44,788 nt of DNA from Pyrinomonadaceae bacterium (GTDB taxonomy: Bacteria; Acidobacteriota; Blastocatellia; Pyrinomonadales; Pyrinomonadaceae): assembly GCA_013812905.1 (NCBI GenBank), contig JACCSP010000087.1, positions 1-44,788 on the forward strand. The letters are read 5' to 3'. The position numbers were made by a program, and so were the translations under genes. The notes beneath the pieces were generated by a model. That model saw nothing but the letters and a program-made list of their open reading frames with translations. It was not told where the DNA came from and made no database searches. Numbering within the stretch: the first letter of the stretch is position 1; every line of letters begins with the position of its first letter. Positions 10,445 through 24,411 of the stretch are shown here, one piece after another.

Positions 10445-10512
10445 CTCGGCCTCTCCTTCAGGTTAAAATCACAATGTGGGAGTGTTGGAACGCTCTTTAA
10501 GCCCATGCATAA

Positions 10513-11030
10513 GAACAGGTCTGTAAGCCGAATTCTGTACTCCGATCTCAGCTGAGATCGGAGTAGCGATCATTCATCTAGTCCAACTGTTGCCAGCCGG
10601 ATCGAGCGACCTACCCGGAGGTCGTAGCAGCTTTACTGCTTCGGGCGGGCAGCCCTTTTTGACGCCTCCCTATTTGGTCTTGCACTGCGAGGAGTTTGCC
10701 TAGCCGCGCATGTCACCACGCGCGCCGGTGCGCTCTTACATTAAGCCCTTGCGGACCGCGCCGTTTCACCCATCACCTGCCTCAGCTTTGCGGCCTCCAC
10801 ACCGCCGAAGCGGTGTCCACCGGTGGCTTGCAAGCAGGCTGGTCTGTTCTCTGTTGCACTTGTCGTCGCTCCAAAATCTCAGACCTGAAATTTCAATCTG
10901 AGATTGACTTGGAACGCCCCGCCGTTAGCGGGCTCGCTGCCCTTTAGTGTTCGGACTTTCCTCTCCTGGCGGTTATCCCAAATCTGAAATCAAACCCGAG
11001 AAACGCCAGCAGCGACCGCCCGACCTGTTC
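10513..11030 (-). ncRNA. rnpB: RNase P RNA, bacterial type A, with extended hairpins
   Basis: The minus strand carries the conserved blocks of the catalytic RNA that removes 5' leaders from tRNA precursors: GAGGAAAGTCCGAACA, AGTGCAACAGAGAACAGACC, GTAAGAGCGCACCG, GCAAGACCAAATAGG and finally ACAGAATTCGGCTTACAGAC. The ends pair as helix P1 (GAACAGGTC at 11030-11022 with GACCTGTTC at 10521-10513). At about 518 nt it is clearly longer than the roughly 380 nt of E. coli. Extra length includes a long hairpin at 10867-10916, at the position of the short P9 arm, and a perfect 26-base palindrome at 10539-10564 near the 3' end. The exact mature ends are estimated. Confidence 0.95.
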
Positions 11031-11047
11031 TCATGCAAGGCTGACAA

Positions 11048-24285: not shown

Positions 24286-24378
24286 GAAGTCTTCAGATTC
24301 CGGGGTTAGTTTTTTTTTGAGCTTTGTGCTTTGTCCCTAGAGTTGCATGACGCGAAAAGCATCTTTTATTTCAGAAGA

Positions 24379-24406
24379 ACAAAGTTCCAAGTACAACGTT
24401 CCAAGT
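24379..24406. repeat. Two-unit 14-bp tandem repeat at the SDR 3' end
   Basis: ACAAAGTTCCAAGT (24379-24392) is followed at once by ACAACGTTCCAAGT (24393-24406), with 13 of 14 bases identical. It sits between uppP and the stop codon of the dehydrogenase gene. No function is evident. Confidence 0.6.
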
Positions 24407-24411
24407 TCGTT

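Follow-up and report, generated by a model that had tools for sequence, protein, structure and literature searches.

A self-complementary genomic heptad repeat has probably lengthened outer helix tips of RNase P RNA in Pyrinomonadaceae and their relatives

The DNA analysed here, a stretch of 44,788 nucleotides referred to below as the window, belongs to a bacterial genome assembly (G000, the source genome) that spans 3.79 Mb over 347 contigs and is listed as 98% complete. It carries rnpB, the gene for RNase P RNA, the essential RNA enzyme of tRNA trimming, and several arms of this RNA contain units of a degenerate heptad, TYTSARA (e.g., TCTGAGA, TTTCAAA, TCTCAGA), whose reverse complement is the same degenerate word. 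The features are as follows.

10508-11031, minus strand: rnpB, class A RNase P RNA, 524 nt (cmscan match to RF00010, 251.6 bits, cut-off 100, model positions 1-367; the single match in the genome)
10966-11008, minus strand: P3 arm, 43 nt, with heptad TTTCAGA (anchored segment; fold -24.3 kcal/mol, z -5.3)
10867-10916, minus strand: P9 arm, with exact heptads TCTCAGA and TCTGAGA (anchored segment; fold z -4.1; near-match to the 21-base heptad pattern)
10778-10836, minus strand: P12 arm, 59 nt, GC-rich, heptad-free (anchored segment)
10706-10722, minus strand: P14 arm, 17 nt, insert-free (survey of length and GNRA loop in rnpB RNAs)
10582-10605, minus strand: P18 arm, 24 nt, GCAA loop, insert-free (survey of rnpB RNAs)
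10538-10565, minus strand: arm at the P19 position, a perfect 28-base palindrome (palindrome scan; fold -21.3 kcal/mol, z -5.8; position from the RF00010 alignment)

At 524 nt, the gene encodes a full-length RNase P RNA of the bacterial class A type, and since it is the sole RF00010 match in the genome, it should be the working gene, as far as sequence can tell. The original prediction had placed an enlarged rnpB of about 518 nt, with all conserved blocks kept, at 10513-11030; this was borne out, with a full-length model match, while the extent and strand are those given above. Relative to the RF00010 model, large insertions lie in P3, P9, and P12, and smaller ones in P13 and in the P15-P17 module, the arm of the latter being the hairpin that the model aligns there, whose exact identity is unsure. 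An additional hairpin, the 3'-most of the RNA, lies past the 3' strand of P2 in this alignment, and we take it to occupy the P19 position. P19 is described as extending the stacking of P2 (PMC12974513).

Three relatives in the same genus (G003, G010, and G015) have compact rnpB genes, and compared with these, the source gene is longer by about 90-120 nt, mainly through P3, P9, and P12: +30 nt in P3 (vs. 13 nt in all three), +9 to +21 nt in P9 (an anchored segment of 47 nt vs. 26, 38, and 27 nt), +37 to +53 nt in P12 (vs. 6, 21, and 22 nt), and 0-9 nt in the palindrome arm, which at 27 nt (vs. 18, 20, and 27 nt) is no longer than the longest of these. The GC-rich P12 thus accounts for about half of the added length, roughly as much as P3 and P9 combined. 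Exact TYTSARA heptads number three, one in P3 and two in P9; at least three were seen in 1 of 2000 letter shuffles of rnpB, and the four overlapping near-exact tandem heptad pairs of the gene were matched by none of 2000. The P3, P9, and palindrome arms each fold better than all 200 of their 200 shuffles.

Individual hairpins had also been predicted. The one at the P9 site, 10867-10916, was recovered as described (-24.4 kcal/mol with flanks), and the perfect 26-base palindrome at 10539-10564 proved exact, being the core of the 28-base one; the next-longest perfect palindrome in the window has 16 bases. This palindrome contains no exact heptad, only TCTCAGC/GCTGAGA, which is one letter off, and the same place in several relatives is occupied by heptad hairpins of 57-95 nt. 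The word AATCTGAAAT, said to recur at 10981, does stand there, in P3, but it occurs once in the window and recurs only as a similar word.

Short tandem arrays of TYTSARA are spread over the source genome and occur throughout its family. The pattern of three units in a row (21 bases) has 10 overlapping exact matches in the source genome, compared with none for the reversed pattern, and 41 overlapping matches per strand, compared with 2 for the reversed control, when up to two mismatches are allowed, in keeping with the earlier expectation that the word would be repeated in the genome. The exact pattern is present in 13 of 16 genus genomes, in 92 of the 119 family genomes, and in 104 of the 162 genomes of the class, whereas the reversed control hits five genomes of the family and five of the class. 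Outside the class, few genomes of the phylum sample have the repeat (8 of 178, among them the TYTSARA-rich G331 with 58 array sites per strand), and the control hits a single genome there, G166, four times. With the reversed control near zero, the heptads are not chance AT-rich words.

Array sites lie mostly between genes: in stretches of the source genome, 15 of 20 merged sites are intergenic, the rnpB site among them, compared with about 15% non-coding DNA (p = 2e-9, with a crude gene model), and three of the remaining five are at the upstream edge of a possibly overlong reading frame. The units are degenerate heptads whose order and number vary, and the arrays differ by eye. Seven-base periodicity prevailed among the intergenic arrays that trf reported in 264,581 bases (period 7, 60 arrays; period 6, 15; period 8, 6), in stretches that, except for the window, were picked because they contain TYTSARA-like arrays. 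Tandem seven-base units are therefore dispersed between genes here, as in STRR-like heptameric repeats. At gathering scores, the only Rfam RNAs at arrays in 18 stretches of the source genome and the window were three tRNAs and rnpB. As a possible second invaded RNA we considered tmRNA, which contained no heptad in any of 13 genomes of the genus. The source genome also has several more intergenic heptad families (ATTGCCR, GTCCAAW, and others) in stretches L189-L206 and the window, and some of their arrays are inverted pairs tens of bases apart (e.g., L195, 15655/15703; L203, 5229/5272). Intergenic heptad arrays of this kind, of TTTGTGC and AAGTTCC/AAGTACAAAGTTCC, lie at 24316-24408 of the window.

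The rnpB gene could be read end to end in ten genomes of the genus. Seven of these have arrays (G000, G002, G004, G006, G007, G011, and G014, with 10-57 array matches), and their rnpB genes are 524-671 nt long and contain 3-14 heptads; the three without any TYTSARA array have heptad-free genes of 403 nt (G003), 433 nt (G010), and 428 nt (G015). These ranges leave out the partial genes of G005, G012, and G016. That these three relatives have no heptad-bearing arms agrees with the expectation of the original prediction that relatives would lack the additional stems. In G012 and G005, rnpB is cut, yet heptad-bearing, and no rnpB match was found in G001, G008, G009, and G013. The piece in G005, a genome with 7% contamination, may be a contaminant contig, because it resembles the gene of G017 (genus g3) and contains a run that would yield both array hits of G005.

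The longest rnpB genes are those of G006 (671 nt), G011 (667 nt), G004 (630 nt), and G137 (624 nt), and 9 of the 119 that were read exceed 550 nt. The lag-7 self-match differs little between compact (0.28) and enlarged (0.316) genes. Heptads are present in rnpB of all seven sampled genomes of genus g3, and heptad-bearing genes turn up here and there in two further genera, g9 and g6, as well as elsewhere in the class, outside the family (G048, G051, and G056), which suggests that heptads reached rnpB several times independently. A species-level genome collection, scanned for rnpB genes whose 3' arm contains two exact heptads, yielded five records, one each under the names Pyrinomonadaceae, Chloracidobacterium, and Acidobacteria and two under Blastocatellia. 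Within the family, an exact tandem pair is found in 17 of 104 rnpB genes, and arrays are present in 16 of those 17 genomes but also in 62 of the other 87, so that TYTSARA arrays look close to necessary, and far from sufficient, for inserts in rnpB. For example, G029 has 122 sites but one heptad in its 513-nt rnpB, and G094, with 143 sites, does not figure in the list of genomes with a heptad-bearing rnpB; G063 has an exact heptad pair in rnpB and no 21-base array in its genome. No rnpB match was obtained in 14 of the 119 family genomes. The gene of G117 was matched as two pieces, and G066 has two full-length copies (C73:64980-65455 and C108:1828-2308), reflecting either contamination or a true duplication.

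Heptads occur at the tips of P3, P9, P12, P13, the P15-P17 module, and the P19 position, and in as many as five arms of a single RNA (G006, G017, G137, G138, and G140). P12, heptad-free in the source gene, has heptads in G002, G004, G006, G011, and G014, and the arm at the P19 position ranges from 15 to 95 nt in 113 RNAs. No heptads were found in P14 or P18 among the 111 and 117 RNAs, of 122, in which these arms were readable: P18 is 24-25 nt long with a GNRA loop in all 117, and P14 is 17-20 nt long in all 111, with a GNRA loop in 107. Helices were read by anchors, which are unreadable in many distant rnpB genes, so the assignment of heptads to arms draws on this genus, on genus g3, and on a number of other genomes, with a few arms unread even within the two genera. 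In class A RNA, P8 is the docking site for the GNRA loops of P14 and P18. The spared arms would be those with docking loops, and given these loops, such sparing is what selection on the fold would be expected to produce.

The inserted heptads fold well. Among heptad-bearing segments of at least 30 nt in 15 genomes of two genera, with P13 left out, 44 of 50 have z below -2. Arrays in rnpB have a higher pairing fraction than arrays elsewhere (0.75, n = 33, vs. 0.65, n = 28; p = 0.003), and the order of their units favors folding more strongly (median z -1.29 vs. -0.51; p = 0.019), although the energy per base did not differ significantly (p = 0.21). With flanks included, the mean z is -4.9 in rnpB and -2.0 elsewhere, the rnpB segments in that comparison containing the native stem.

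The genomes with compact rnpB (G003, G010, and G015) have 58, 29, and 9 sites (both strands) of a different heptad family, ATTGSCR. Arrays of that family are absent from G014, so heptad families come and go independently. Exact tandem pairs of TYTSARA were found in 19 of 122 rnpB genes, and pairs of the four other heptad families tested in none. A simple reason for the tolerance of TYTSARA in rnpB would be that its runs self-fold: because the degenerate word reads the same on both strands, runs tend to pair with themselves in any unit order, and because they self-pair, the repeat can grow in a hairpin tip without breaking the arm beneath it.

Heptads are thus present in several helices of rnpB, differ between clades, are absent from the three array-free members of the genus, and fold as predicted hairpins. 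We consider it likely, though well short of certain, that the outer helix tips of rnpB have been lengthened largely by TYTSARA, a mostly intergenic simple repeat of the same genomes, and as part of this explanation the source gene would be a class A RNase P RNA gene in single copy and otherwise ordinary, with outer helices lengthened at their tips. The pattern reads as repeated helix-tip growth by self-complementary heptads, and neither as one old structure nor as one mobile palindrome. Counting against this explanation are two features of the source gene, its palindrome arm, no longer than that of one compact relative, and its enlarged but heptad-free P12. Replication slippage and template switching at hairpins could add seven-base steps to the tips, and selection in rnpB would keep paired arms and remove changes that unpair an arm as well as inserts in P14 and P18. 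As to stepwise growth, no pair of genomes was found in which the inserts differ by a single unit. The variation of the inserts among close relatives argues that they may be tolerated.

The original prediction had favored the insertion of a mobile palindrome into a structural RNA. REP elements are linked to Y1 transposases, and a REP- or MITE-like palindrome moved into rnpB arms by such an enzyme is the form of this explanation that we weighed. The prediction is partly supported, in that relatives without heptad arms exist and the word family is repeated genome-wide. Short palindromes lie between genes here, as in the REP elements of PMC3733652. Y1 genes are present in these acidobacterial genomes as well. 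Within the genus the association looks strong: the array-free genomes have 0, 0, and 1 Y1_Tnp matches, and each of the remaining 13 has 4-15. It weakens across the family (rank correlation 0.32), where Y1 and arrays co-occur in 82 genomes, Y1 without arrays in 18, arrays without Y1 in 10, and neither in 9 (p = 0.013); of the 119 family genomes, one of the 10 with arrays but no Y1 match at 1e-10, G133, has 72 sites. At the flanks of Y1 genes it is weaker still: a repeat flanking the transposase gene, as in REP systems, was seen in 1 of 40 neighborhoods (up to 1 kb on each side, some clipped by contig ends). Moreover, the arrays are mostly intergenic and vary in length and unit order, and no fixed palindrome appears to have been copied, so that a Y1 transposase was set aside as the mover and the mobile palindrome seems to us improbable. 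The Y1 matches of the source genome itself (e.g., G000:C170:13586-13905) are short and weak, the best at 2.9e-11, and may be decayed; several relatives have nearly full-length Y1 transposase matches.

We regard as equally improbable that the long arms are an old class A extension, inherited in the family with compensatory changes. Small clades do share inserts in which pairing is kept: G007 and G012 have 31 pairs and no broken ones in the insert at the P19 position, and G004 and G011 have no broken pairs in P9 and P3, with a few two-sided changes, in pair counts taken from consensus folds of two or three sequences and biased toward intact pairs. However, the same stems in all relatives, the outcome named beforehand as fatal to the idea of an insertion, were not seen. 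The three compact members of the genus are without inserts, the inserts consist of a genome-wide repeat, and the two enlarged clades differ in sequence and length at the same tip. This last observation leans toward growth that may have been separate in the two clades, although fast turnover could look identical.

The compact genomes cluster within the genus in two shallow trees, one of the rnpB core (305 columns, 49 of 121 rnpB) and one of tmRNA (13 genomes), both without support values. Because the three group together, the association between arrays and length may be a single event. In one history, the repeat disappeared from the genomes of the compact clade and from their rnpB at once; in the other, inserts arose independently in each of the two enlarged clades. 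Loss in the compact clade is no less possible than gain in the others.

A new function of the long arms favored by selection, such as protein docking, folding in cold or salt, or regulation, with the repeat as raw material, would accommodate the better pairing of arrays in rnpB and the presence of heptads in up to five arms per RNA; yet neighbors differ in sequence, length, and the arms used, and the compact clade manages without long arms, so that we rate this explanation marginally below the two preceding ones. An artefact of assembly or binning, for which one could cite that all five named records are metagenome assemblies and that the G005 piece resembles genus g3, is very improbable given that related inserts recur in separate assemblies with the conserved core intact and that 103 of the 105 family genomes with an rnpB match have a single one.

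Growth of the helix tips by TYTSARA may have a wider meaning. It is conceivable, and we offer it tentatively at somewhat less than an even chance, that a self-complementary repeat is a ready-made source of helices, that TYTSARA was the only tested heptad family tolerated for this reason, and that it has repeatedly built RNase P RNA expansion segments at free tips while sparing the GNRA arms P14 and P18. If true, this would be a present-day, sequence-traceable case of structural RNA growth by accretion. The origins of expansion segments are mostly inferred from deep comparisons, with the source sequence lost; in the acidobacterial rnpB, a likely source repeat is still in the genome, genus members with and without it exist, and the ribozyme can be assayed in vitro.

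The closest precedent comes from heterocyst-forming cyanobacteria, in whose rnpB Vioque reportedly described repeats in 1997, which are said to be tandem heptamers. These would likewise be genome-dispersed tandem repeats inside an RNase P RNA gene; the acidobacterial case differs in phylum, in its self-complementary unit, and in affecting several helices of one RNA. Intergenic heptameric repeats are described for Xanthomonas (GGGAATC) and Nostoc (GGGGA(T/C)T) in PMC4692102. Like TYTSARA, they are degenerate and vary in length and sequence among close relatives, but they are G-rich and quadruplex-prone, and the main text does not mention rnpB (PMC4692102). The Rickettsia palindromic elements (PMC10969869) are likewise palindromic repeats within functional genes, but they are about 150 bp long and lie in protein genes, in contrast to heptad runs in a structural RNA. 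The RNase P RNA expansion segments of PMC12974513 are likewise lineage-specific added helices on an older structure that is kept, while the additions to rnpB are traceable to a repeat of the same genome.

In our literature search we found no account of a repeat-built rnpB in Acidobacteria or Pyrinomonadaceae, a weak absence with subscription papers largely outside its coverage. Repeats in rnpB and intergenic heptads are already known, and, with the same weakness, self-complementary heptads in several rnpB helices appear not to be matched in the literature. RNase P RNAs are given as 250-550 nt long, with a class A mean of 374 nt, in PMC7191817, and the G006 gene extends them past this range, to 671 nt. 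The model search stopped short on rnpB of G011, where the full gene has 667 nt, and gene finders may cut such enlarged genes short.
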